Shown: positions 5,548 through 34,848 of the stretch, piece by piece
How the letters are laid out: each line of letters begins with the position of its first letter
Position numbering within the stretch: the stretch's first letter is position 1
DNA from: Dehalococcoidia bacterium
GTDB taxonomy: Bacteria; Chloroflexota; Dehalococcoidia; DSTF01; JACRBR01
Assembly (NCBI GenBank): GCA_021731085.1
Contig: JAKFYB010000031.1
Span: forward strand, 1-38,369
Length of the DNA stretch: 38,369 nt
Direction: 5' to 3'
Made by a program: the position numbers and the translations under genes
Notes under the pieces: model-generated
What the model was told of the DNA's origin: nothing
Database searches by the model: none
The model's input: only the letters and a program-made list of their open reading frames with translations

Positions 5548-7626
5548 TCAGGTGATGGAGAACATTTCTATGGGGCGGATTAGGCCTTCGCGGGGCTTTT
5601 TGGGTTTGCCGGCGGCTTCGAGTTTGAGGTCGAGGCGGTCTAGGCAGTCTTCGGCGTTTTGGTTTTGGACGCCGCAGACGTTGCATGGGTCTTTGTGGCA
5701 GTCGGCGGTGGTTTGGGCGTTGAGGGTGCGCATCCATTCGGCGCGGAGGTAGGACTCGGTGACGCCGATGTTGATGTGGGACCATGGAAAGTGGCCGAAG
5801 GGTTCGGGTTGGCGGTAGGCGTAGAACGCGGGGTCGACGCCGGTTTCTTCGAAGGCCTGGAGCCAGCGGTTCCAGTCGTAGTGCTCGTGCCAGGCGTCGA
5901 AGCGCGCGCCGAGTTCCCACGCGCGGTGGATGGCCTTGCCGAGACGGCGGTCGCCACGGGAGAGAACTGCTTCCAGGAGCGAGTGCTCCGGATCCTCCCA
6001 CGTGAACTGTACGCCGATCTTTTTGAGGTGATCGCGGAGGTAGTGGTGTCGGGCGCGGAGGATGCCGGGCTGTTCCTGGACGGCGTACTGGAACGGCGTG
6101 TGGGCTTTCGGGATGAAGTTTGATGTGCTGACGCGAACGCGCGCGCGGCCGCCGTGGTAGCGGCGGCCGATCTCTTTCACTTTCTTGGCGAGCGCGACGA
6201 TACCTTCGATGTCTTCGTGGGTTTCTGTCGGCTGGCCGACCATGAAGTACATCTTGACGTTGGTCCAGCCCTGGGCGAAGGCGTTATCGACGGCGGTGAA
6301 GAGATCGTCGTCGGTGACGATCTTGTTGATCGTCATGCGGAGGCGTTCGGTGCCGGCCTCCGGCGCGAAGGTGATGCTGTGCTTGCCGCGCTGGGCGACG
6401 AGTTCGCTGATGCGGACGGAGAAGCTGTCGACGCGCATGCTCGGGAGGGAGATCGTGAGATCGTCGCCGAACTCTTCACGGAGGCCTTCGGCGATCTCGA
6501 CGATGCGTGAGTGGTCGGTTGTGCTGAGCGAGACGAGGGAGAGTTCGTCGTAGCCTGTGTTCTCGCGCAATTCTTTGGCGGCGGCGACGACTTCTTCGGG
6601 ATCGCGTTCGAGGCGCGGTCGGTAGATGATGCCGGCCTGGCAGAAGCGGCAGCCCTGTGTGCAGCCGCGCTGGATCTCGATCGCCATGCGGTCATGCACG
6701 GTCTGGAGGAAGGGGACGATAGGTTTGGTTAGGGGTGGAGGGAGTTGTTGTACGAAGCGCTTGGTTACGCGCTTTGGGAGCCAGTCTTCGGTTGGTGCGA
6801 CGATCTTGATGCTGCCGTCTTCGTTGTAGACCGGCTCGTAGAAGCGTGGGTTGTATGTGCCCCAGATCTTCTGCAGCCGCCGCATGAGATCGATCCGCGA
6901 GGAGTTGTCATGAATCGGCGTCTCGGTGGCGCTATCGCCTGTGGGCGCGGTGATGGTACTGCTAGATTCTTCGCTTTGCTCAGAATGACGTGACCCCACA
7001 CTCTTCGCGCTGTCGCGAGCGGCATTGGACGTCGACGACGAGGGCGCGGCAAGCAGCGCCCCTACATGGGACTGTTTCCAGTTTCTTACGGTGTCTACCA
7101 CGTCGAGGATGGCTTCTTCGCCGTCGCCCATAACGAAGACGTCGATGAAGTCGGCGAGGGCGTCGGGGTTGAGGGCGCCGGAGCCGCCGCAGATGATGAG
7201 GGGGTGGGTTTCGTTGCGATCGGCCGCCAGCACCGGGATGCCGGCGAGATCGAGCATGTTGAGGATGTTTGTGTAGGTGCCCTCGTAGGAGAGGGAGAAG
7301 CCGAGGATGTCGAACTCGCTGATGGGATGGCGGGTTTCGAGGGACCAGAGGGGGACGTTCTCGTCTCGCATGATCTGTTCGAGGTCGGTCCAGGGTGCGT
7401 AGACGCGTTCGGCGAGCATGCCATCGCGGCGGTTGATGATGTCGTAGAGGATGCCGATGCCCATGTTGGACATGCCGATGTCGTAGAGGTCGGGGTAGGC
7501 GAGGGCGATGCGGAGGTCGCAGGCGTCCCAGGCTTTGGTGGTGGAGTTCCATTCGCCGCCCGTGTAGCGGGCGGGTTTTTGGACACGTGGGAGGATGTGG
7601 TCGATGTTTACGGTTGGCATTGTCAT
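5548..7626 (-). CDS. B12-binding-type radical SAM protein (TIGR03960-like) with in-frame repeat insert
   Basis: A 692-residue radical SAM enzyme. An N-terminal cobalamin-binding-like region (about 30-185, with [14 protein letters not shown] and GDGEEAILD) precedes a radical SAM core whose 4Fe-4S site is C322xxxC326xxC329. The C-terminus has a further Cys cluster ([11 protein letters not shown]). The layout fits the TIGR03960 family; its reaction is not established, so I assign none. Residues about 186-243 (DNA 6898-7071) are unlike the family and consist of translated repeat modules ([10 protein letters not shown] and [11 protein letters not shown]), added without breaking the frame. ATG7626 or ATG7620 begins the family-like sequence (MPTVNIDH); longer in-frame extensions run into repeats. 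No clear ribosome-binding site precedes it. The downstream neighbour on this strand is the repeat mosaic. Confidence 0.87.
6926..7068 (+). repeat. Repeat composite (linker - C - linker - E) inside the radical SAM coding sequence
   Basis: On the plus strand this reads linker (about 6926-6943, GGCGCTATCGCCTG), C module (6963-6990), linker (7010-7020, CGCTGTCGCG) and E module (7038-7066, ending GCGCCCCTACATG). Orientation and order match the intergenic composite at 5199-5341. It contributes about 48 residues to the minus-strand protein with no stop codon. Confidence 0.85.
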
Positions 7627-7641
7627 GCAGGGTAACGGATC

Positions 7642-7827
7642 GGTCGTCGGTCGCCGGTCGCCGGTCGTCGAGGGCGGAAACACAGAGACACAGAGGATCG
7701 AATAGGCCTGGGTGAAGTTCTGTGGGCGCTGGCGCATGCGTGCTGCGCGGCGAGGGCGGCCACGCAGGGCCGCCCCTACGCGGGACATGGGCGCTGGTTC
7801 GACGAGGGCCGACACGCAGGTCGGCCC
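7642..7827 (+). repeat. Heptad array plus A, linker and two E modules
   Basis: Four heptads, GGTCGTC, GGTCGCC, GGTCGCC, GGTCGTC, occupy 7642-7669. They are followed by A (7678-7697), linker (7718-7738), an E hairpin GGGCGGCC...GGCCGCCCC (7750-7775) and a second E-type hairpin GGGCCGAC...GTCGGCCCC (7805-7828). The last one overlaps the stop codon of the dockerin frame. No gene is seen in this gap. Confidence 0.75.
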
Positions 7828-10735
7828 CTACGGGCACCTCCTTGGGCCGAATTGGCGGGCGGCAGCGAAGAGGTCGGCGATGGTTACGGCGCCGTCGCGG
7901 TTGATGTCGTGCTGTGCGCTGTAGGGTCGGAAGATGTGGACGGCGATGCGGAGCATGTCGCCGACGTTGACGCGTCCGTCGTTGTTGAGGTCGGCGGTCG
8001 GCGGTTGGTGTTGTTGTGTTGGTCGCTGTTGGTGGGACGGATGTGTTGGTTGCGGTGTTGACGGGCGTATTTGTGGGCGTGTGAGTCGCCGCCGGGATGG
8101 GCGTGTTGGTTGATGTTGGTGGAACCGGCGTGTTTGTGGTGGTTTGGGTTGGCGTGAGGGTTGATGTGGGCGGAACCGGCGTGTTCGTTGGTGTGTGAGT
8201 TGCTGTCTGTGGGACTGCGGTGTTTGTTGGCGTTGAGGTTGGTGGGAGCGGCGTGTTGGTAGCCGTCGCCGTTGGTGGTAGGGGCGTGTTCGTTGGCGTG
8301 TGAGTTGCCGTCGGTGGGACGGGCGTGTTTGTCGGGGTGTTGGTTGCAGTGAAGGTCGCGCTTGGTGGAATGGGCGTGTTGGTAGGCGTGTGCGTTGTGG
8401 TGCTAGTGGATGTCGGCGCGAGGATGGTGTTTGTTGCCGTCGGTTGGTTCGGGGTGTTGGTAGCGGTTGGCGCGATTGGCGTGCTGGTCGGAGTTTCGGT
8501 CGGTGGTGGCGTGGCTGTGCGTGTCGGCGTCGCCGTTGGTTCCGGCGCGGGACAGGAGGGATCGATGGGCGTTAGGCCCGTCCATGAGGGCTGCGTGTCG
8601 GTCGCTGGGGAGTTGCTGATGTTCGTTTGGTCAGATCCGTCTGCGTCCATCAGGTAGATCTCGTAGTTACCGTCGCGGTTGGTAACGAATGCTAGCTGGG
8701 TTCCGTCGGGCGAGAACTCTGAGGCGAAGTCATCGAGCGCGTTGTTTGTGAGACGGGTCTGGTTCGCGCCGTCGTCGGCGTCCATCACATAGACCTCGTT
8801 GTTGCCGTCGCGTGTGCTTGCGAAGGTGATCTTCGTACCGTCCGGCGACCACTGTGGAATGTTGTCCATGGCGACGTTGTTCGAGAGTCTCGTCGGATTC
8901 GTACCGTTGGCATTCATCACATAGATTTCCGCCGCGAGAGTGAACCAGTCACGGTAGGCGACGAAGGCGATTTTTGTGCCGTCGGGTGACCACGCCGGGA
9001 ACTCATCGTGAAAGTCGCCGTCCGCGCCGTTCGTCACGTTGATGACGTTGGAGCCGTTGGCGTTCATGACGAAGATGTCGTAGTTCTCGCCGTCGCGGTT
9101 GCTGGAAAACGCGATCTTTGTGCCGTCGGGTGACCAGACTGCTGTGTCGTCGAGAAAGGCGTTGTTTGTGAGGTTGACGACGTTTGAGCCGTCGGCGTCC
9201 ACAACGTAGATCTCGCGATCGTTGAGTCCACCGCGGCTTCGCGTGAAGACGACCTTCGTGCCGTCGGGCGACCAGTCGGGGCGATAGCTCTGGACGGGGT
9301 GGGCGGTGTTCGTGAGGCAGGTCGGGGCTGCGCCGTCGCCGTCCATGACGTAGAGATCGAACTGGCCCCCAGCATCGCGATCGGTGGTGTAGACGATGCG
9401 CCCGAGGTTTTCGGTCGCGGGCGTGCTGGTTGGCGTTGGGGCGACGGGAGTGTGTGTTGGCGTGTGCGTCGCTGTGGGTGCGGTCGTGTTAGTGGCGGCG
9501 GGTGTGTTGGTTGGGGTTGCGAGCGGCGGGATGGAGCAGTTGACGTCGCCGCAGTGGAGAATGGCGAGATCGGTTCCCGAGGCTGCGTAGAGCGACACTG
9601 CGGGGCGTCCGCTCGCGTCGAGCACGATGGATGTGGCGCCATGGACGGAGCCATTTCCACCGGCAGCCGCGGCCAGGACGTGGCTTTCGTCTCCCCCGGT
9701 GCAGGCAGGATCGTTGCAGTGGATGACGTACGTCTGGTTGTGTTCGCGGTAGTAACTGATCACGGGGTTCGCGTCGTCGTCGATGGCGAGCCCAGGGGCG
9801 CTGTTGAAGGAGACATTTCCGGAGGTGAGCGTCTGGAAGGTATCGCCGCCGGGCGCGCAGTTGGGGTCGTCGCAGCGGGCGAGCGCGATCTGCGTTAGGC
9901 CATTGACGTTGACGTTGTAGGCGATGACAGGGTTGCCGCCGACGAGCTTGATAGCGGTGTGGCGACCGGCCATCGCACCGTCGAGGGACTGGACGCTTTC
10001 GTCTCCGCCCGCGCAGTTGAGGTCGTTGCAGTGGAGCAAGCGTAGGCCGTCGGCGCCGCTGTATGCGATGACAGGAAAGCCGGCGGCGTCGAGCGTGATG
10101 CTGTTCGCGGCAGTTGGTTCTGGTTGGACGATGAAGCTCGGGTCGTTGGTGAGTGCAGTGCAGTTCGTGTTGGCGCAGCGTGCAATCTGGAGGCCGTTCT
10201 GGCGGAAGACGATGACGGGGAGATCGCCGGCTGCGAGGACGTGGCTCGAATAGAGTTCGCAGCAGCCCGTGACCGGCGTGACGAGCGACTCGTCGTTGCC
10301 GTCGCAGTTGGCGTCGTTGCAGTGGAGGACGTTGATGCCGCCGTGCAAGAACGTGATGATCGGGTTGCCCGCAGAGTCGAGGGACAGAGAGGGGTTGGTT
10401 ACGCCAGCCCCGGTCGCAAATAGAGTCTCGATGCTGTCGTCGCCTCCAGCGCAGTTCGCGTCGTTGCAGTGGAGTAGACGGATCTGGTTGGCCAACTCGC
10501 CGGGCCCGCTTTTCTTGAATGCGACGACTGGAAATCCGTCGGCATCCAGCTTCATGCTTGACTCTTCGCCGATGTTGTCGACTGGGTGCGGGTCGGGGAA
10601 GGTGAGGGTGTTTTCGCCGATGGCGGCGGCCGGAGGGGCGTCGTGGCGTGCGAGTAGTGCTGCCGTCAGGGCCAGGGCTGCTAGTGTCGCTAGCGGCAGC
10701 AGCACGAACGACCGACGATTTAGTTGACGAGTCAT
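7828..10735 (-). CDS. Secreted double beta-propeller protein with PT-rich linkers and a frameshifted C-terminal dockerin
   Basis: A large exported protein, about 966 residues if the frame is restored. NRRSFVL followed by a hydrophobic stretch suggests a Sec or twin-arginine signal. Residues about 45-400 hold seven repeats with a Cys-x4-Cys motif (HCNDANC), probably a seven-bladed propeller with disulfides. After a Pro/Thr-rich linker come six PD40/TolB-like blades ([10 protein letters not shown], about 440-720), then a long Pro/Thr linker (about 725-910). A type I dockerin with two calcium loops ([12 protein letters not shown] and [12 protein letters not shown]) follows in another frame. The frame break coincides with a tandem duplication of GGTCGGC at 7989-8002; deleting one copy restores one continuous frame to the TAG at 7828-7830. 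As read, the main frame runs on through unrelated sequence to 6980. GGGAGG precedes ATG10735. The ligand is unknown. Confidence 0.8.
7989..8002 (+). repeat. 7-bp tandem duplication causing the dockerin frameshift
   Basis: GGTCGGC occurs twice in tandem (7989-7995 and 7996-8002), followed by GGTTGGT, so it belongs to the GG-phased heptad type. One copy would give the in-frame junction Thr-Pro-Thr-Ala-Asp-Leu-Asn-Asn on the minus strand. Confidence 0.85.
8003..8550 (-). repeat. Low-complexity Pro/Thr/Asn linker-coding region
   Basis: The minus strand encodes degenerate repeats of the type [13 protein letters not shown] over about 180 residues, joining the second propeller to the dockerin. Such linkers are flexible and often O-glycosylated in secreted proteins. 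Repetitive coding DNA of this kind is also prone to slippage. Confidence 0.8.
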
Positions 10736-16525: not shown

Positions 16526-16641
16526 GACTTCTAGAGTATCGGCCCGCATCGCAACCCTGTGGCGCCGCCGTCCTCTCGCGCGGCGCCACTTCCCGCAGAT
16601 TCGACCCACCCGTACACTGGCGATCGCCTCAGTTCGGCCAC

Positions 16642-16679
16642 CGACGACCGACGACCGACGACGACCGACGACCGACGAC
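16642..16679 (+). repeat. CGACGAC heptad array upstream of the GH1 gene
   Basis: Five copies of CGACGAC (complement GTCGTCG, the same GGTCGTC phase as at 7642) occupy 16642-16679, interrupted by one extra GAC after the third copy. The array ends directly before the AGGAG ribosome-binding site of the GH1 gene at 16681-16685, so changes in copy number could move the promoter relative to the gene. Confidence 0.8.
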
Positions 16680-16692
16680 CAGGAGCCACCAC

Positions 16693-18048
16693 ATGAAGAA
16701 GATGACCTTCCCGGCGGGATTCAGCTGGGGCACCGCCACCGCCTCGTACCAGGTGGAGGGCGCGTGGGACGAGGACGGCAAGGGCGAGTCGATCTGGGAT
16801 CGCTTCTCGCACACCGAGGGCCGCATCGCCACCGGCGACACCGGCGACGTGGCGTGCGACCAGTACCACCGCTACGCCGAGGACGCCGCGATCATGAAGC
16901 AGATCGGCATGCGGGGGTATCGCTTCAGTGTGTCGTGGTCGCGGATCTTTCCGGACGCGTCGGGGAAGGTGAACCAGGCGGGGTTGGACTACTACAGCCG
17001 CCTCACCGACGAACTGCTGAAGAACGGCGTCATGCCCTTCCCGACGCTGTACCACTGGGACCTGCCACAGTGGCTGCAGGACCAGGGCGGCTGGGCGAAC
17101 CGCGACATCATCACGCACTTCGCGACGTACGCCGAGACCGTCGTCAACGCGCTCGGCGACCGCATCAAGAACTGGATGGTCTTCAACGAGCCGTGGGTGT
17201 TCGTGTACCTCGGCTACCTCTACGGCGTGCACGCGCCCGGTATCCGCGACAGCGATCTCGGCGTGAAGGCGTCGCACATCGTGAACCTCGCGCAGGCATC
17301 GGCGATGAAGGCGATGCGAGCAACGGGCAAGATCGAGCAGGTCGGCAGCGCGTACAGCATGGCGTCGACGTATCCGTACTCCGACAGCGCCGACGACAAG
17401 GCCGCGGCCGAACGCCAGCACGCGTGGAACAACGTCTGGTTCCTCGACCCATCGATCAAAGGCGCGTACCCGAACGCCTACATCGAGCAGGAGAAGATGC
17501 TGCGCAAGATGGATGTGCGCCCCGGCGACATGGAGGCCTGCGTCGAGAAGCCGGACTTTATCGGCATCAACCTCTACCAGCGCTCGATCGTCGAGAACGA
17601 CCCGAACAACCGTAACCTCGGCCTGCGCCAGCACCGCGGCCCCGGCCCGCAGACGGCGTTCGGCTGGGAGATCTGGCCGGCGGCGCTGTACCAGATGATC
17701 AAGCGCATCGATAAGGACTACGGCCTGCCGATCTACATCACCGAGAACGGTTGCAGCTTCCCGACCGGCCCCGACGCGAATGGCCGCGTGCCCGACCAGG
17801 ACCGGATCGACTTCTACCACGGCTTCGTCGGGCAGGTCGGGCGGGCGATCGATGAGGGCTGCGATGTGCGTGGCTACTACGGTTGGACGCTCATCGACAA
17901 CTTCGAGTGGGCGGAGGGCTTCCGCCAGCGCTTCGGCATCGTGCATGTAGACTTCGAGACGCAGAAGCGCACGATCAAGGACAGCGGCTACTGGTTCCGC
18001 GACCTAATCGCCGCGAACGAGATCGAGTACGACGAAACGCTTGTTTAG
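16693..18048 (+). CDS. Glycoside hydrolase family 1 beta-glucosidase
   Basis: A 451-residue GH1 retaining beta-glycosidase, cytoplasmic by its lack of a signal peptide. It begins with the GH1 N-terminal signature FPAGFSWGTATASYQVEG (6-23). The acid/base Glu166 is in FNEPW and the nucleophile Glu351 in ITENG. HWDLPQWL (121-128) and the C-terminal NFEWAEGF complete the glycone-binding site. Length is normal for the family. It probably cleaves cellobiose or other beta-linked glucosides or galactosides. AGGAG 7 bases upstream supports ATG16693. Heptad repeats lie directly before the gene and start again at its TAG stop. No transporter or sugar regulator is adjacent. Confidence 0.96.
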   Translation: MKKMTFPAGFSWGTATASYQVEGAWDEDGKGESIWDRFSHTEGRIATGDTGDVACDQYHRYAEDAAIMKQIGMRGYRFSVSWSRIFPDASGKVNQAGLDYYSRLTDELLKNGVMPFPTLYHWDLPQWLQDQGGWANRDIITHFATYAETVVNALGDRIKNWMVFNEPWVFVYLGYLYGVHAPGIRDSDLGVKASHIVNLAQASAMKAMRATGKIEQVGSAYSMASTYPYSDSADDKAAAERQHAWNNVWFLDPSIKGAYPNAYIEQEKMLRKMDVRPGDMEACVEKPDFIGINLYQRSIVENDPNNRNLGLRQHRGPGPQTAFGWEIWPAALYQMIKRIDKDYGLPIYITENGCSFPTGPDANGRVPDQDRIDFYHGFVGQVGRAIDEGCDVRGYYGWTLIDNFEWAEGFRQRFGIVHVDFETQKRTIKDSGYWFRDLIAANEIEYDETLV

Positions 18049-18074
18049 GTGACAGGTGACCGGTTACAGGTGAC
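18047..18074 (+). repeat. AGGTGAC heptad array starting in the GH1 stop codon
   Basis: Four heptads, AGGTGAC, AGGTGAC, CGGTTAC, AGGTGAC, start within the TAG stop of the GH1 gene. A degenerate E-type element (GTAGGGGC...GCGCCC) follows at 18080-18103. Confidence 0.75.
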
Positions 18075-26584: not shown

Positions 26585-27802
26585 ATGGAATTCACCGACA
26601 CACCGCAAGAAGCAGCCTTCCGCGCCGAGATGCGCTCGTTCATCGAGCAGGAGTGCCCTGAAGGCATCCGTCGCCGCGGGTTCCGCGCGGCGTTCGGCGG
26701 CGGCGGCTGGGACGACATCCACATGTCGCGCGAGGAGTACTTCAAGCGCAACGGCGCCTGGGTGAAGAAACTCGCCGACCGCGGCCTCATCGCTCCCGCC
26801 TGGCCGAAGGAGTACGGCGGCGCAGGCCTCTCCGTCATGGAGCAGTTCATCTTCACGCAGGAGATGTCGCTGTCGGGCGCGCCGCGCGGCGGCAACTTCG
26901 GTATCGGCACCGGCTGGGCGGGCCCGACGATCATCCTCTACGGCACCGACGAGCAGAAGCAGAAATACCTCACGGGCATCATCAAGGGCGATGACGTTTG
27001 GTGTCAGGGCTTCAGCGAGCCCGGCGCCGGCAGCGATCTCGCCAACGTGCAGACGAAGGCGGTGAAAGACGGCGACGACTACATCGTCAACGGCCAGAAG
27101 ATCTGGACCTCCGGTGCGCACGTCGCCAAGTACATGATCCTCCTCGCGCGCACCGACCCCGATGCGTCGAAGCACAAGGGCATCAGCTACTTCATCGTCG
27201 ATATGAAGACGCCGGGCCTCACCGTCCGCCCGCTCGTCAACATGGCCGGCAACCACGACTTCAACGAGGTCTTCTTCGACAACGTCCGCGTCCCGAAGGA
27301 GAACATGATCGGCGAGGAGAACCGCGGCTGGTACGTCGGCACGACGACGCTCGACTTCGAACGCAGCGGCATCGCGACCAGCATCTCGCACACGCTGATG
27401 GTCAAGGACCTCGTCGACTTCATCAAGGAGAACAAGGGCACCGGCGTCATCACCGAAGATGCGGGCCTCCCGAACGAACTCGCCGACCGCATGATCGAAG
27501 CCGCTGTCGAAGAAAATCTCTGCACAATGGTGATCTCGATGCAGAACCGCGGCCTCGTGCCCAACAAGGAGTCGTCGATCGCGAAGCTCTTCTCGTCGGA
27601 GCTCGACGTGCGTATCTCGCGCACAGCGATGAAGGCGCTGGGGCTGTACGGCCAGCTGCGGACGGGTAGCGAGTACGCCGCCGCCAACGGTCGCGTCGAA
27701 AGCACCTACCTCTACGCGACTACATCGACAGTGGGTGGCGGTACGAGTGAGATTCAGCGCAATATCATTGCCAGCCGCGGGCTGGGTATGCCGCGAGCAT
27801 AG
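26585..27802 (+). CDS. Acyl-CoA dehydrogenase paralog 1
   Basis: A 405-residue FAD-dependent acyl-CoA dehydrogenase, oxidising an acyl-CoA at the alpha-beta bond. CQGFSEPGAGSDLANVQTKA (140-159) and IWTSG (173-177) form the FAD and substrate site. The medium-chain-type Glu position near the C-terminus is Gly (VGGGTSEIQ), but Glu259 in LDFERS aligns with the helix-G catalytic Glu of isovaleryl- and long-chain enzymes. The N-terminal loop is longer than in the other four paralogs (FGGGGWDDIHMSRE). It follows the TetR gene by 9 bp. A D hairpin lies in the gap to paralog 2. The substrate is unknown; branched, steroid-side-chain or long acyl chains are candidates. Confidence 0.95.
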   Translation: MEFTDTPQEAAFRAEMRSFIEQECPEGIRRRGFRAAFGGGGWDDIHMSREEYFKRNGAWVKKLADRGLIAPAWPKEYGGAGLSVMEQFIFTQEMSLSGAPRGGNFGIGTGWAGPTIILYGTDEQKQKYLTGIIKGDDVWCQGFSEPGAGSDLANVQTKAVKDGDDYIVNGQKIWTSGAHVAKYMILLARTDPDASKHKGISYFIVDMKTPGLTVRPLVNMAGNHDFNEVFFDNVRVPKENMIGEENRGWYVGTTTLDFERSGIATSISHTLMVKDLVDFIKENKGTGVITEDAGLPNELADRMIEAAVEENLCTMVISMQNRGLVPNKESSIAKLFSSELDVRISRTAMKALGLYGQLRTGSEYAAANGRVESTYLYATTSTVGGGTSEIQRNIIASRGLGMPRA

Positions 27803-27816
27803 GCAAGGTGCCGGAG

Positions 27817-27835
27817 CGCGGGCTTTCAGCCCGCG
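27817..27835 (+). repeat. D hairpin between acyl-CoA dehydrogenases 1 and 2
   Basis: CGCGGGCT - TTC - AGCCCGCG, an 8-bp stem with a 3-base loop and no T-run. The same element recurs in the next two gaps of the array. Confidence 0.8.
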
Positions 27836-27892
27836 TGGGTTGAGCAAGAACAGAGTCTGTAACGCAGGGACGATCGAGTAAGGAGAGTCGAA

Positions 27893-29074
<1,182 letters not shown>

Positions 29075-29089
29075 CCACCTGAGCAGGAG

Positions 29090-29108
29090 CGCGGGCTTTC
29101 AGCCCGCG
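29090..29108 (+). repeat. D hairpin between acyl-CoA dehydrogenases 2 and 3
   Basis: CGCGGGCT - TTC - AGCCCGCG, identical in its 19 bases to the element at 27817-27835 and placed at the same distance after the stop codon. Confidence 0.8.
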
Positions 29109-29209
29109 TCGTCGGCCGAGAAGAAACACCAAAGCAAGAGAACCCGCGCCCGCCTCGGCGGACGCTACGAAGAACACTGAACGACCAACGCAGAGGAGAG
29201 ACGAGAACC

Positions 29210-30391
29210 GTGGACTTTAACGACACGCCAACAGAAGCAGCATTTCGGACCGAGGTCCGGAAGTTCATCCAGAGCGAAGCCCCCAAGCCCCAGAAAGGCC
29301 AAACGGCAACAGAAGCCCTCATGGGCAACTGGCAGGCCAACCAGGAGTGGTTCAAGAAGCTCGGTTCCAAGGGCTGGATCGCCCCCGCTTGGCCGAAAGA
29401 GTACGGCGGCGCGGGCATGACAACCGTCGAGCAGTTCATCTTCAATGAGGAGATGGCGCTCAACAAGGCACCCCGCCCGATGCACATGATCATCGGACTT
29501 GGCATGGCCGGCCCGACACTGATCGTCCACGGCACGGACGAGCAGAAGCAGAAGTTCCTTCCCGGCATGCTCGCCGGCAACGACATCTGGTGCCAGGGTT
29601 ACAGCGAGCCCGAGTCCGGTTCCGACCTCGCATCGCTGAAGACGCGCGCCGTCCGCGATGGCGACGACTACGTGATCAACGGCCAGAAGATCTGGACGAC
29701 GCTCGCCCACATGGCGAACTACATGATCCTGCTCACGCGCACCGACCCCGACGCGCCGAAGCACCGCGGCATCACGTACTTCATCCTCGACATGAAGACG
29801 CCGGGCGTCGAAGTGCGCCCGCTCTACAACCTCGGCAACAGCCACGAGTTCAACGAGGTCTTCTTCGACAACGTCCGCATCCCCAAGGACAACGTCATCG
29901 GCGAGGAGAACCGCGGATGGTACGCCGCCGTCACGACGCTCGACTTCGAGCGCTCCAGCATCGGCAGCGCCACCGGCATGAAACAGCACGTCGAAGAACT
30001 GCTCGAGTATGCAAAGGCCCACGCAGACGACCCGACGAGCACCCTCAGGACCAACCCGATGCTGCGCTACGAACTCGCCGACCGCATGATCGAGACAGAA
30101 GTCGCCCGCATGCTCTCGTACCGCGTCGCGTCGATGCAGAACCGTGGCCTCATCCCGAACTACGAGGCGTCGTCGCTGAAGCTTTTCTCGACCGAACTGA
30201 ACCAGCGCATCGCCAAGTCGGCCATGCACATCCTCGGCCTGTACGGACAGCTCCACGGCGATGCAGCCCCCGGCAAGGGCCGATGGCTCAGCACCTTCCT
30301 CCGCAGCGCCGCCTACACCATCGAAGGCGGCACATCGGAGATCCAGCGCAACATCATCGCCCAGCGTGGCCTGTCGTTGCCGCGCGACTAG
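29210..30391 (+). CDS. Acyl-CoA dehydrogenase paralog 3
   Basis: A 393-residue acyl-CoA dehydrogenase. WCQGYSEPESGSDLASLKTR (128-147) is the FAD/substrate motif and Glu247 in LDFERS the candidate base. The C-terminal motif is IEGGTSEIQ: a Glu is present one position before the medium-chain-type Glu site, which itself is Gly. This paralog is therefore the only one with an acidic residue close to both catalytic positions. It uses a GTG start at 29210 with GAGGAGA upstream. The 135-bp gap before it holds a D hairpin. Confidence 0.95.
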   Translation: MDFNDTPTEAAFRTEVRKFIQSEAPKPQKGQTATEALMGNWQANQEWFKKLGSKGWIAPAWPKEYGGAGMTTVEQFIFNEEMALNKAPRPMHMIIGLGMAGPTLIVHGTDEQKQKFLPGMLAGNDIWCQGYSEPESGSDLASLKTRAVRDGDDYVINGQKIWTTLAHMANYMILLTRTDPDAPKHRGITYFILDMKTPGVEVRPLYNLGNSHEFNEVFFDNVRIPKDNVIGEENRGWYAAVTTLDFERSSIGSATGMKQHVEELLEYAKAHADDPTSTLRTNPMLRYELADRMIETEVARMLSYRVASMQNRGLIPNYEASSLKLFSTELNQRIAKSAMHILGLYGQLHGDAAPGKGRWLSTFLRSAAYTIEGGTSEIQRNIIAQRGLSLPRD

Positions 30392-30447
30392 CACGCCGTC
30401 CGGAGCGTCCGCCTTCGGCGGGCGTGTTCGTGCACCGGGTAACGGAG

Positions 30448-30514
30448 CGCGGGCTTTTCAGCCCGCGCGGTTGGCGACGAGTGTGGGAAAGTACCCGCGG
30501 AGCCTAAGCTCCGC
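30448..30514 (+). repeat. Two D hairpins between acyl-CoA dehydrogenases 3 and 4
   Basis: CGCGGGCT - TTTC - AGCCCGCG at 30448-30467 and GCGGAGC - CTAA - GCTCCGC at 30497-30514. A third, less regular hairpin CCGCC - TTC - GGCGG is at 30409-30421. None has a T-run. Confidence 0.75.
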
Positions 30515-30553
30515 CATAAAGTTTTGATTGACGCACGAGCGTCCGTGAGTTGA

Positions 30554-31732
30554 ATGCAGTTTAGTTTCACCCCAGAGCAAGAAGCCTTCAGGACCGAGGT
30601 CAACTCGTTCCTGAAACAGCACTTGCCCGCGAACTGGGAAGGCGCCGACAACGCCATTGACGAAGGCGACCACGAATTCGGCCGCGAGTTCCTGAAGAAG
30701 CTCGCGCCGAAGAAGTGGATCGCACCCGCGTGGCCTGTCGAGTACGGCGGCCTTGGCATGTCGCTGTGGGACCAGGTGATCTTCAACGAGGCGATGGGGT
30801 ATGCGCGCGCGCCGATCGTCAACACCGCTGCCGTTGGCTATCTCGGTCCGACGATCATCCTGTACGGCAGCGACGAGCAGAAGAAGCAGCACCTGCCCGG
30901 CATCACTTCCGGCGACGTGATCTGGTGCCAGGGTTACAGCGAGCCGAACAGCGGCAGTGACCTCGCTTCCCTGCAGACGCGCGCGGTCAAGGATGGCGAC
31001 GACTGGATCATCAACGGGCAGAAGATCTGGACATCGCAGGGCCACTACGCCGACTGGATGTTCCTCATCGCCCGCACCGATCCCGACGCGCCGAAGCACC
31101 GCGGCATCAGCTACTTCCTCCTTGACATGAAGACGCCGGGCATCTCCGTCCGGCCGCTGATCAACATGGCGGACGGCGAGGGCTTCAACGAAGTCTTCTT
31201 CGACAACGTCCGCGTGCCGTCATCGGCGCTGCTCGGCGAACTCAACCGCGGCTGGTACATCGCCACGACGACCCTCGACTTCGAGCGCTCGGCCATCGGC
31301 GGCACCATGCAGGCGCTCCGCACGCTCGAAGAACTCACGCGTTTCGCCAAGACCGAGAGTGACGGCCGGGGCAAGACGCTCTGGGATAAGCCTCCCGTCC
31401 GCCACGCGCTCGCCGATCTCTGGATCACGTCCGACATCACGAAGCTGTTGTCCTACCGCGTCGTCTCGATGCAGGAGCGCGGCCTCGTCCCAAACTACGA
31501 GTCCAGCATCAACAAGATCCTCACCACCGAGTACGTGCAGCGGCAGCAGCGCGTCGGCATCAGCATCCTCGGCATGTACGGCGGTCTCTGGGGCGAGGGT
31601 CCGTGCGCGAAGCTCCGCGGACGCTTCGCGAAGGCATACGTCGCGACGGTTGGGTCAGCGATCGCCGGCGGCACAACAGAGATCCAGAAGAACATCATCG
31701 CGACGAGGGGCCTCGGCCTCCCGCGCCAATAA
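30554..31732 (+). CDS. Acyl-CoA dehydrogenase paralog 4
   Basis: A 392-residue acyl-CoA dehydrogenase, the most divergent of the five tandem copies: its N-terminus MQFSFTPEQEAFRTEV and the region 80-100 differ, and the C-terminal motif is IAGGTTEIQKNIIA. WCQGYSEPNSGSDLASLQTR (124-143) and Glu244 in LDFERS are kept. The start is ATG30554 without a recognisable Shine-Dalgarno sequence, unlike its neighbours, so translation may depend on coupling or a different start. Three hairpin repeats fill the gap before it. Confidence 0.95.
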   Translation: MQFSFTPEQEAFRTEVNSFLKQHLPANWEGADNAIDEGDHEFGREFLKKLAPKKWIAPAWPVEYGGLGMSLWDQVIFNEAMGYARAPIVNTAAVGYLGPTIILYGSDEQKKQHLPGITSGDVIWCQGYSEPNSGSDLASLQTRAVKDGDDWIINGQKIWTSQGHYADWMFLIARTDPDAPKHRGISYFLLDMKTPGISVRPLINMADGEGFNEVFFDNVRVPSSALLGELNRGWYIATTTLDFERSAIGGTMQALRTLEELTRFAKTESDGRGKTLWDKPPVRHALADLWITSDITKLLSYRVVSMQERGLVPNYESSINKILTTEYVQRQQRVGISILGMYGGLWGEGPCAKLRGRFAKAYVATVGSAIAGGTTEIQKNIIATRGLGLPRQ

Positions 31733-31748
31733 CGAGCATCAAGTAGCG

Positions 31749-31766
31749 GCGGAGCTTCAGCTCCGC
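31749..31766 (+). repeat. D hairpin between acyl-CoA dehydrogenases 4 and 5
   Basis: GCGGAGCTTCAGCTCCGC, an almost perfect palindrome of the GGAGC-type D module. Confidence 0.8.
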
Positions 31767-31806
31767 TCAGTCGCTGACATCAAGCGAATGTCAGCAAAGA
31801 GGAACA

Positions 31807-32982
31807 GTGGACTTCAGGGACTCGACCGAAGACGCAGCATTCCGACAGGAAGTTAAAGACTTCCTGCGGACGGATCTGCCCGCCGATCTCAAGGCGGACG
31901 ATGATGTGATCCTCGGCGTCGGCGTGGGGGAGAACCCACGCGACAAGGACTGGCTCAAGACGCTGTCGAAGCGCGGCTGGGTCGCCCCCAACTGGCCGGT
32001 TGCGTACGGTGGCGCCGGCCTCAGCGTCATGCAGCAGTTCATCTTCAACGAGGAGATGGCACGCGCTGCCGCTCCCCGCCCCAACTTCCTGGCGATAGGC
32101 CTCGCTGGCCCCACGATCATCGTCCACGGCGACGAGGCGCAGAAGAAGCAGCATCTCTCCGGCATCCTTTCCGGCGAGGACTACTGGTGCCAGGGATTCA
32201 GCGAGCCCGGCTCGGGCTCCGACCTCGCGTCGCTCCAGACGAAAGCGACGCAGGACGGCGACGACTTCATCATCAATGGACAGAAGATCTGGACCTCTGG
32301 CGCACACCGCGCCGACCGCATGATGCTCCTCGCCCGCACCGACCCCGACCAGCCGAAGCACAAGGGCATCAGCTACTTCCTGCTCGACATGAAGACGCCC
32401 GGGATCAGCATTCGCCCGCTCACCAACATGGCCGACACGCCGAGCTTCAACGAAGTCTTCTTCGACAACGTCCGCGTCCCCAAGGGCGACCTTCTCGGCG
32501 AGGCCAATCGCGGCTGGTATTACGCGACGACGACGCTGGACTTCGAGCGCAGCGGCATCATCAGCGGCGTCGCGCTCCAGCGTCTCGTCACCGACACCAT
32601 CGGTTACGCGAAGCAGTCGCCGCGCACGGACGGGGCCTGGTCGGCGATCCGTCACGAACTCGCCGAACGGTACATTGAGACCGAGATCTCGATCGCGCTC
32701 TCATATAGAGTCGCGTCGATGCAGGCGAAGGGCATGGTTCCGAACCAGGAAGCGTCGATCACGAAGCTCTTCGGTTCGGAGCTGGCGCAGCGCATCGCCA
32801 AGACAGGCATCAAAGTCGCGGGACTGTTCGGCCAACTGCGCGAAGGTTCCCAGCACGCCGCGCTCGGTGGAAGATTCGAAGGCTGGTACCGTATCGCCGT
32901 CGGCTCGACGCTGGCAGGCGGCACATCAGAAATACAGCGCGGAGTCATCGCGCAACGCGGCCTCGCGCTGCCGCGAGGCTAA
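31807..32982 (+). CDS. Acyl-CoA dehydrogenase paralog 5
   Basis: A 391-residue acyl-CoA dehydrogenase. WCQGFSEPGSGSDLASLQTK (128-147) and Glu247 in LDFERS are kept; the C-terminal motif is LAGGTSEIQRGVIA, with Gly at the medium-chain-type Glu site. The start is GTG31807, with AGAGGA just upstream. The region 26-48 (ADLKADDDVILGVGVGE) is specific to this copy. A small membrane protein and the divergent sixth dehydrogenase follow in the same direction, so the operon probably continues. Confidence 0.95.
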   Translation: MDFRDSTEDAAFRQEVKDFLRTDLPADLKADDDVILGVGVGENPRDKDWLKTLSKRGWVAPNWPVAYGGAGLSVMQQFIFNEEMARAAAPRPNFLAIGLAGPTIIVHGDEAQKKQHLSGILSGEDYWCQGFSEPGSGSDLASLQTKATQDGDDFIINGQKIWTSGAHRADRMMLLARTDPDQPKHKGISYFLLDMKTPGISIRPLTNMADTPSFNEVFFDNVRVPKGDLLGEANRGWYYATTTLDFERSGIISGVALQRLVTDTIGYAKQSPRTDGAWSAIRHELAERYIETEISIALSYRVASMQAKGMVPNQEASITKLFGSELAQRIAKTGIKVAGLFGQLREGSQHAALGGRFEGWYRIAVGSTLAGGTSEIQRGVIAQRGLALPRG

Positions 32983-33076
32983 GGAAGAAGCAGTGGAAAT
33001 GAGAACAGAGAGAATACGCTCCGACGCAGAGTCTGAACATGAACAAGGTCGCGGAACGACAGGAAAGTAGCTCCGA

Positions 33077-33493
33077 ATGAAACGAATTCTCATAGCGCTC
33101 GCCATCGCCGCCAGCATCTACGGCCTCGCGCTCGCCGTCGGCGGCATCGTCTATGCGACCGACAACGTCCCGACGGGGCCGACGCACAATGACTGTGGCG
33201 ACCTCAAGCCCGTCATCGCGGAACGCGATCACGGTGGCGACGAGGAAGAAGTCACGCAGGAAGAACTCAAGCAGGAGACGATCGACTGCCTCGCTGGCAC
33301 TGGCTTGTATGTCGAGGAAGGCGGGCACGAACGCACGGAAGAAGAGGTCGTCCGCGAGTACATCATCTGGAGCATTTGGCCCGGCATCATCGTCGCCGTC
33401 ATCTTCCTGCTCTGGCCAGTCTGGACGCAGATTCTCCTCAACCACGAAGACGAGGAACTCAGAAAGGGAGAGGACGTACCACACAAGGATTAG
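33077..33493 (+). CDS. Small membrane protein of unknown function
   Basis: A 138-residue protein with two predicted membrane helices (about 4-26 and 98-117) enclosing an acidic loop with two Cys (Cys40 and Cys70), rich in Glu and Asp. The ends are charged. I do not recognise the family. It sits between acyl-CoA dehydrogenases 5 and 6 on the same strand and may be cotranscribed with them. The two Cys in an external loop could form a disulfide. The 210-bp gap after it (33494-33704) contains no gene or module I can name, apart from a short CCCGCC-GGACGGG hairpin-like stretch. Confidence 0.7.
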   Translation: MKRILIALAIAASIYGLALAVGGIVYATDNVPTGPTHNDCGDLKPVIAERDHGGDEEEVTQEELKQETIDCLAGTGLYVEEGGHERTEEEVVREYIIWSIWPGIIVAVIFLLWPVWTQILLNHEDEELRKGEDVPHKD

Positions 33494-33704
33494 GCGGCGT
33501 TGCGAGTAGGATGACGGAGGGGGCAGGCCATCCAGGGATTGGAGCTCGCAGACCCAGCGCCTCGCACGCCCATGCAGCAGTAGTTCCACCCGCCGGACGG
33601 GTGTCAAGAAGCAAGGAATATCGCCCGAAGCCAATTTCGCTGGATCGTCAGACCGCCAGCCAATAACCTTTCGAGGCGAACAAGCATAAGGAGACGGTAG
33701 CAAC

Positions 33705-34829
33705 ATGGACCTGGGACTTTCAGAACAGCAGGAACTGCTGAAGAACGCCGCGCGCGACTTCCTCGAGAAGGAGTGCCCGGAGACCCTCGTGCGCGAGATG
33801 GAAGAGGACGAGAAGGGCTACTCGCCCGACCTCTGGAAGAAGATGGCGGAGCAGGGTTGGCAGGGGCTCCTCATCCCGGAGGCGTACGGCGGCGCTGAGT
33901 TCTCATACCTCGACCTGATCATTCTCATCGAAGAGTTCGGTCGCTCGCTCGTACCCGGCCCGTTCCTCTCGACGCAGGTCGGCGGCGTGCTGCCCCTGCT
34001 CGAAGGCGGCACGGAGCAGCAGAAGCAGTACGCGCTCCCGAAGATCGCCAGCGGCGAGACCATCTGGACGCTCGCTTACACCGAGCCCTCCGCGCGCTTC
34101 GACACCGAAGGCGTCGCGCTCGAGATCAAGGAGGACGGCGGCGACCTCGTTCTCAACGGCACGAAGCTCTTCGTCCGCGATGGCAACGTCGCCGACTACT
34201 TCACCGTCGTCGGCCGCAAGCCGGGCACGAAGGGCGACGACGGCATCGAGCTCGTCATCGTCGACGCGAAGACGGCGGGCATCACCATCACGACCCTCAA
34301 GACGATCGCCGCCGACAAGCAGTGCGAGATCAAGTTCGAGAACGTGAAGGTCCCGAAGGAGAGCATCATCGCCGGCGGCGCCGCGCTGCTGAAGAAGGTG
34401 CAGAACAAGGCGACGGTGCTCGAGTGCGCGTACCTCGTCGGCCTGGCGCAGATGGACTTCGACATCAGCGTTCAGTACGCGAAGGACCGCATCCAGTTCG
34501 GCCGCCCGATCGGCTCTTTCCAGGCGATCCAGCACAAGGCCGCCGACATGGTCACGGACGTCGATGGTTCGCGCTTCATCACCTACCGCGCTGCCTGGTC
34601 CGTCGACCAGAGCGAAGACGACGCCGACCTCAACGTCAACATGGCGAAGGCCTGGGTGAGCGAGGCCACGCGGCGGGTCGTCGCGCACGGCCAGCAGATC
34701 CACGGCGGCATCGGCTTCACGAAGGACTACAAGGTCCAGCTGTACTTCCGCCGCCAGAAGGCCGCGGAGTTGGCGTGGGGCGACAGCGACTACCACCGCG
34801 AAGCGGTGGCGGAAGCCCTCGCCATCTAG
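33705..34829 (+). CDS. Acyl-CoA dehydrogenase-like protein 6, probably non-catalytic partner
   Basis: A 374-residue acyl-CoA dehydrogenase-fold protein clearly different from the five upstream paralogs. LAYTEPSARFDTEGVAL replaces the usual FAD-motif sequence, FGRPIGSFQAIQHKAADM (264-281) is typical, and the C-terminus HGGIGFTKDYKVQLYFRRQK ends in ELAWGDSDYHRE. Neither catalytic Glu is present: the C-terminal site has no Glu, and the helix-G site aligns with Ala236. In actinobacterial alpha2-beta2 acyl-CoA dehydrogenases one subunit lacks the base, so this may be the partner of one or more upstream paralogs. AAGGAGA precedes ATG33705. A heptad array starts in its stop codon and a strong terminator follows. 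Confidence 0.9.
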   Translation: MDLGLSEQQELLKNAARDFLEKECPETLVREMEEDEKGYSPDLWKKMAEQGWQGLLIPEAYGGAEFSYLDLIILIEEFGRSLVPGPFLSTQVGGVLPLLEGGTEQQKQYALPKIASGETIWTLAYTEPSARFDTEGVALEIKEDGGDLVLNGTKLFVRDGNVADYFTVVGRKPGTKGDDGIELVIVDAKTAGITITTLKTIAADKQCEIKFENVKVPKESIIAGGAALLKKVQNKATVLECAYLVGLAQMDFDISVQYAKDRIQFGRPIGSFQAIQHKAADMVTDVDGSRFITYRAAWSVDQSEDDADLNVNMAKAWVSEATRRVVAHGQQIHGGIGFTKDYKVQLYFRRQKAAELAWGDSDYHREAVAEALAI

Positions 34830-34848
34830 TCGTTGGTCGTTGGGACAT
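34828..34848 (+). repeat. Heptad array starting in a stop codon
   Basis: AGTCGTT, GGTCGTT, GGGACAT starting within the TAG of the dehydrogenase gene. The first two units are identical to those at 1719-1732. Confidence 0.65.

Follow-up and report, generated by a model that had tools for sequence, protein, structure and literature searches.

A tandem 7-bp repeat lies at a frame break between the linker and the dockerin of a predicted exported protein in a Dehalococcoidia genome

The window, by which we mean the whole stretch of 38,369 nucleotides that was analysed, carries on its minus strand a gene for a predicted exported protein, composed from its N terminus of a signal-like segment, HCNDANC-type motifs, a Thr/Pro linker, five PD40 repeats and a second, long Thr/Pro linker (Table 1). 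The codon model put the gene start at 10705, and the start read from the sequence is Met 10735; from that Met about 913 residues can be followed to ...TTTPTAD, after which the sense is lost. Stretches related to the HCNDANC-motif region were present in order-level and class-level relatives, and many of the relatives named belong to the Chloroflexota. Beyond the end of the long linker lies a dockerin domain, matched by Dockerin_1 (PF00404) at 7995-7870 (26.9 bits, and 30.3 bits in a second scan, with a curated cut-off of 22.9), whose two canonical F-hand calcium loops (DxNxDGxxxxxD) are present and undamaged. Elsewhere in the window, six acyl-CoA dehydrogenase genes (374-405 residues) lie on one strand at 26585-34829, five of them in a row. 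A palindrome-like element (minus strand CGTAGGGGC...GCCCTCG) is present twice at 7748-7832, the copies lying 52 bp from one another with 85% likeness, and its gene-proximal copy supplies the stop codon of the dockerin.

Table 1. Features of the dockerin-protein locus and the frameshifts accepted in the sampled genome
Feature	Position	Strand	Basis or remark
Likely start Met 10735 and signal peptide	10622..10735	minus	read from sequence
N-terminal region, repeated HCNDANC-type motifs	9533..10621 (approximate bounds)	minus	translation
PD40 (WD40-like) beta-propeller repeats, five stretches	8578..9373 (approximate bounds)	minus	Pfam PF07676, 3.2e-43
Thr/Pro-rich linker, same frame as body	8000..8560 (approximate start)	minus	translation
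Perfect period-7 run, minus strand ACCGCCGACCGCCGACC, 2.4 copies, frame-break site	7989..8005	minus	
Type-I dockerin, +1 frame, two calcium loops, C-terminal Cys	7831..7998	minus	PF00404
TAG stop of the dockerin frame	7828..7830	minus	
Upstream protein continued out of frame (338 residues, 26% Arg; stop 6980-6982)	6980..7996	minus	translation
Downstream radical-SAM gene	5548..7626	minus	PF19864, PF04055; start ~7626 read from sequence
Frameshift, linker-dockerin break	7995/7996	minus	codon model
Frameshift, LamG-LamG-phosphatase-linker-dockerin protein (named from sequence, not scanned)	C24:48585 (L102:12585)		break near GACAGCGCACGATCGCGACG; no 7-bp repeat
Frameshift, SulP-like transporter (named from sequence), C-terminal part in other frame	C22:48175 (L164:18175)		

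The initial annotation had described an exported protein separated from an out-of-frame C-terminal dockerin by a GGTCGGC GGTCGGC pair, and in these points our analysis bore it out: the pair lies at 7989-8002 within a perfect period-7 run that reaches 8005 (17 nt), its 14-mer occurs only once in the whole genome, and the dockerin is read in the +1 frame with its own TAG at 7830-7828. A codon-usage model that allowed for six coding frames and was blind to the repeat placed its only frame switch in the window at this site and scored the dockerin stretch at +11.7 in its own frame versus -58.9 and -22.6 in the other two, indicating that the dockerin is coding-like and that the break falls at the repeat; third-position G+C of the same stretch was 87.5%. 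We found no start codon in the dockerin frame in the 300 bases before the break, which makes separate production of the domain unlikely. The upstream frame, for its part, does not end close to the repeat; it crosses the intergenic DNA and then overlaps the radical-SAM gene for about 215 codons. We looked for a terminator-like site close to the gene on the minus strand and found none, and an idea involving non-stop mRNA was therefore dropped. A programmed +1 ribosomal frameshift that joins body and dockerin from the two-copy sequence would be in keeping with a junction open in both frames; however, by inspection the codons ACC GCC GAC CGC CGA CCT contain no slippery run or in-frame stop, and the paralogues need no shift, so that we regard such a mechanism as extremely improbable. 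Two of these paralogues, with Thr/Pro linkers and from the same genome, hold linker and dockerin in one frame (C9:30633-30791 and C3:118937-119098).

The junction itself differs from those of related proteins in a second respect. We compared it with the other dockerins ending with a C-terminal Cys in the same genome and in genomes of the family, and all 35 had a partner Cys, which lay in the N flank (within about ten residues before loop 1) in 32 and inside loop 1 in three. The dockerin studied here retains the C-terminal Cys (GPRRCP) and lacks the partner in head or loop 1, and no Cys codon occurs in any frame of the minus strand at 7990-8150. The closest Thr/Pro-linker paralogue reads PTNGRRCADVNGDGRV, and frame 0 here reads PTADRR, followed by the dockerin from ADLNNDGRV, so that PTNGRRCADVN in the paralogue is compared with PTADRR-ADLNN. 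With the partner Cys present in 35 of 35, the rule of succession gives a functional dockerin that lacks it a chance near 1 in 37. By analogy, the paired Cys of head (or loop 1) and tail may be a disulfide counterpart of the dockerin clasp and may play a stabilising part similar to that of the cellulosomal clasp. In a single-sequence fold, the dockerin shows two helices where they are expected, with a pLDDT of 59.5 that is too low to rely on. These comparisons qualify two earlier statements: removing one repeat unit does restore the frame, but the resulting join is not the perfect one that had been described, as it is without the partner Cys of all 35 relatives; and the dockerin, said to show no other damage, lacks its head partner Cys. 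Either the dockerin was already degenerate or a deletion took the Cys codon.

A restored one-copy join that lacks the partner Cys favours a deletion or earlier decay. If the ancestral joint was ...PTADRR-C-ADLNND, losing a net 2 mod 3 bases, for example 8 bp between two GCCG copies, could have taken out the Cys codon and put the dockerin out of frame, and the 7-bp repeat would then have arisen incidentally from the way in which T-A-D-R-R and A-D-L are encoded. One event would account for both the missing Cys and the change of frame, in keeping with the conserved partner Cys of the comparable dockerins, the lack of any Cys codon around the junction, and the way in which frame-0 TPTADRR lines up with PTNGRRCADVN and SRGNRCADVN of the paralogues. 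However, the RR alignment was noticed after the fact, and a tandem run with at least 10 matches arose at only 0.03% of simulated deletion joints (0.3% if the ancestral joint was TADRRC), and we consider this origin somewhat unlikely. An error of assembly or sequencing, with the true genome in frame, would fit the 3.58-Mb draft of 52 contigs, in which the window is contig 29, and the undamaged calcium loops, and yet it leaves the missing Cys unexplained; a 17-nt repeat is shorter than the usual assembly k-mers and reads, and a spurious perfect 7-bp duplication is not the common type of error. Accepted frameshifts are also rare (three in 623 kb), arguing that the assembly is not error-prone, and we therefore judge an error unlikely.

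Those three frameshifts were obtained from the genome sampled as 20 + 20 stretches, in which dockerin regions were deliberately over-sampled, with the model switches sorted by eye. By eye, the candidates at L096, L149, L156:12590 and L165 proved to be genes that adjoin or overlap one another, and Thr/Pro linkers taken in a wrong frame accounted for L099, L195 and L206; L146:42 and L156:273, near the end of a stretch, stand outside the three accepted. In the C24 protein, the Thr/Pro linker and dockerin lie in another frame than the LamG-LamG-phosphatase body; this candidate was called in the first model run and lost on retraining, and it therefore rests on its translation. Two of the three frameshifts fall in dockerin proteins, from which no enrichment is claimed given the over-sampling of dockerin regions. 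It is highly doubtful, in our estimation, that recurrent frameshift loss and regain of dockerin tails at or before the linker serves as a contingency mechanism releasing or holding surface proteins, with the 7-bp doublet and the C24 break as two such sites.

The statement that 7-bp units are common in this genome proved right, the enriched class being the longer arrays and the doublets being barely in excess genome-wide. Within the window, exact period-7 doublets numbered 8 against 3.5-4.2 expected under Markov models of the window, and period-7 runs of at least 17 nt numbered 4 against 0.1-0.2 in Markov simulations. Across 623 kb of the genome, there were 14 such runs (0.5 expected) and nine runs of three full copies (0 expected), compared with 3, 1 and 0 runs of two units plus 3 nt at periods 8, 10 and 11, respectively; periods 6 and 12 were also above expectation, as is expected of coding repeats such as Thr/Pro linkers. 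Exact doublets of at least 14 nt genome-wide showed hardly any excess (65 vs 56 expected), and overlapping doublet matches to the unit ACCGACG alone number 43 genome-wide. According to the model, eight of the 14 runs are intergenic and five, besides the run at 7989-8005, lie in open frames; some open-frame period-7 runs are in-frame inserts, for example ASNIQHPTSNI in a 1493-residue frame. The window also holds heptanucleotide arrays of related units (ACCGACG, ACCGGCG and others) at 7640-7667, 16640-16680, 18047-18060 and 34829-34843, which are mostly intergenic.

Attachment to the cell surface, which had been proposed as the role of the domain, is plausible from what the sequence predicts, since the genome encodes 19 dockerins together with predicted membrane-anchored cohesin partners. 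Four cohesin-like domains were matched by PF00963, three of them above the cut-off. In the cohesin protein of contig 22, one cohesin and a linker stand between a signal-like N terminus and a hydrophobic helix at the C-terminal end, behind which come basic residues; the cohesin proteins of contigs 18 and 26 have lipobox-like N termini. It is thus plausible that exported proteins of this organism dock to the cell surface.

Could slippage between one and two copies of the repeat then toggle surface docking? The enrichment of 7-bp arrays, the anchored cohesin and a second dockerin protein that is also frameshifted ahead of its dockerin would all be in keeping with a reversible phase-variable switch. 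Against this, the repeat has only 2.4 copies (17 nt) and is much shorter than a contingency tract would be, the other dockerin gene with a frameshift is without a 7-bp repeat, and the partner Cys is missing. A switch between one and two copies would moreover have an awkward off state, as the two-copy sequence runs on as an Arg-rich tail of 338 residues into the next gene, to the stop at 6980, and only a three-copy allele would stop soon, ending the upstream frame after some 38 residues. With two copies only, an off state that is not clean and no known allele of another copy number, the proposal of a reversible on/off switch was not upheld, and we consider it very unlikely.

By a little better than an even chance, in our assessment, a single indel broke the frame where linker and dockerin meet in an ordinary exported protein with a dockerin tag, most simply by a duplication through slippage. 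In favour of this stand the placing of the break inside the repeat by the model, the two paralogues with linker and dockerin in one frame, the rarity of so long a tandem run at simulated deletion joints, the genome-wide enrichment of period-7 arrays, the lack of a start codon for the dockerin and the small number of other frameshifts. Such slippage would have occurred between two ACC triplets 7 bp apart (ACCGCCGACC) and duplicated GCCGACC. In the sequenced lineage, the ribosome would then pass the dockerin in the wrong frame and make the Arg-rich tail of 338 residues with no dockerin, docking onto the anchored cohesins would be lost, and no selection for the event need be supposed. The most likely interpretation overall is a plain loss-of-frame mutation in one gene among about 20 dockerin genes and no programmed switch. 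We keep the duplication ahead of the deletion and retain both readings, the deletion because, among small indels, deletions are the commoner class. An orthologous allele was sought in the genus, the family and 84,980 species genomes, and this sensitivity-limited search returned none, only domain-level relatives; the lack of an allele from the same or a sister species counts against this account. A literature search on microhomology-driven tandem duplication in bacteria yielded nothing directly on point.

Overall, the break is a real observation of an ordinary kind, and a reversible switch is unlikely. If it is ordinary, the locus illustrates how a tandem doublet may sit at a break point without being the lesion, as comparison with the paralogues exposed a missing conserved Cys that attention to the repeat alone would miss. 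A true switch would make this a frame-controlled dockerin, and in the literature searched on dockerins and phase variation, where one general review named both, no precedent for one was found. Among known systems, simple-sequence-repeat contingency loci undergo phase variation by slipped-strand mispairing, as reviewed in PMC11868660; the likeness to these lies in a short tandem array that fixes, through its number of copies, the frame in which a surface-related protein is read, whereas here there are only 2.4 copies, no known variation, an off state that is not clean and no orthologue that carries the repeat. Reversible frameshift indels and scars have been described in Mycobacterium tuberculosis (PMC8339072), where likewise a small indel at repetitive sequence puts a gene out of frame in a manner reversible in principle, but that work drew on 5977 clinical genomes and ours on one draft genome. 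Type-I dockerins, with their head-to-tail clasp (discussed in PMC4728124), share with the present domain (PF00404) the two calcium loops, the C-terminal position and the genomic cohesins, and the dockerin here differs in being out of frame and in lacking the head Cys that its relatives have along with the tail Cys. Finally, the interspersed heptanucleotide repeats of Beggiatoaceae, such as TAACTGA (PMC4679880), are similarly enriched and mostly intergenic 7-bp tandem units, in contrast to which the unit varies in this genome and the doublet studied here sits at a coding junction.
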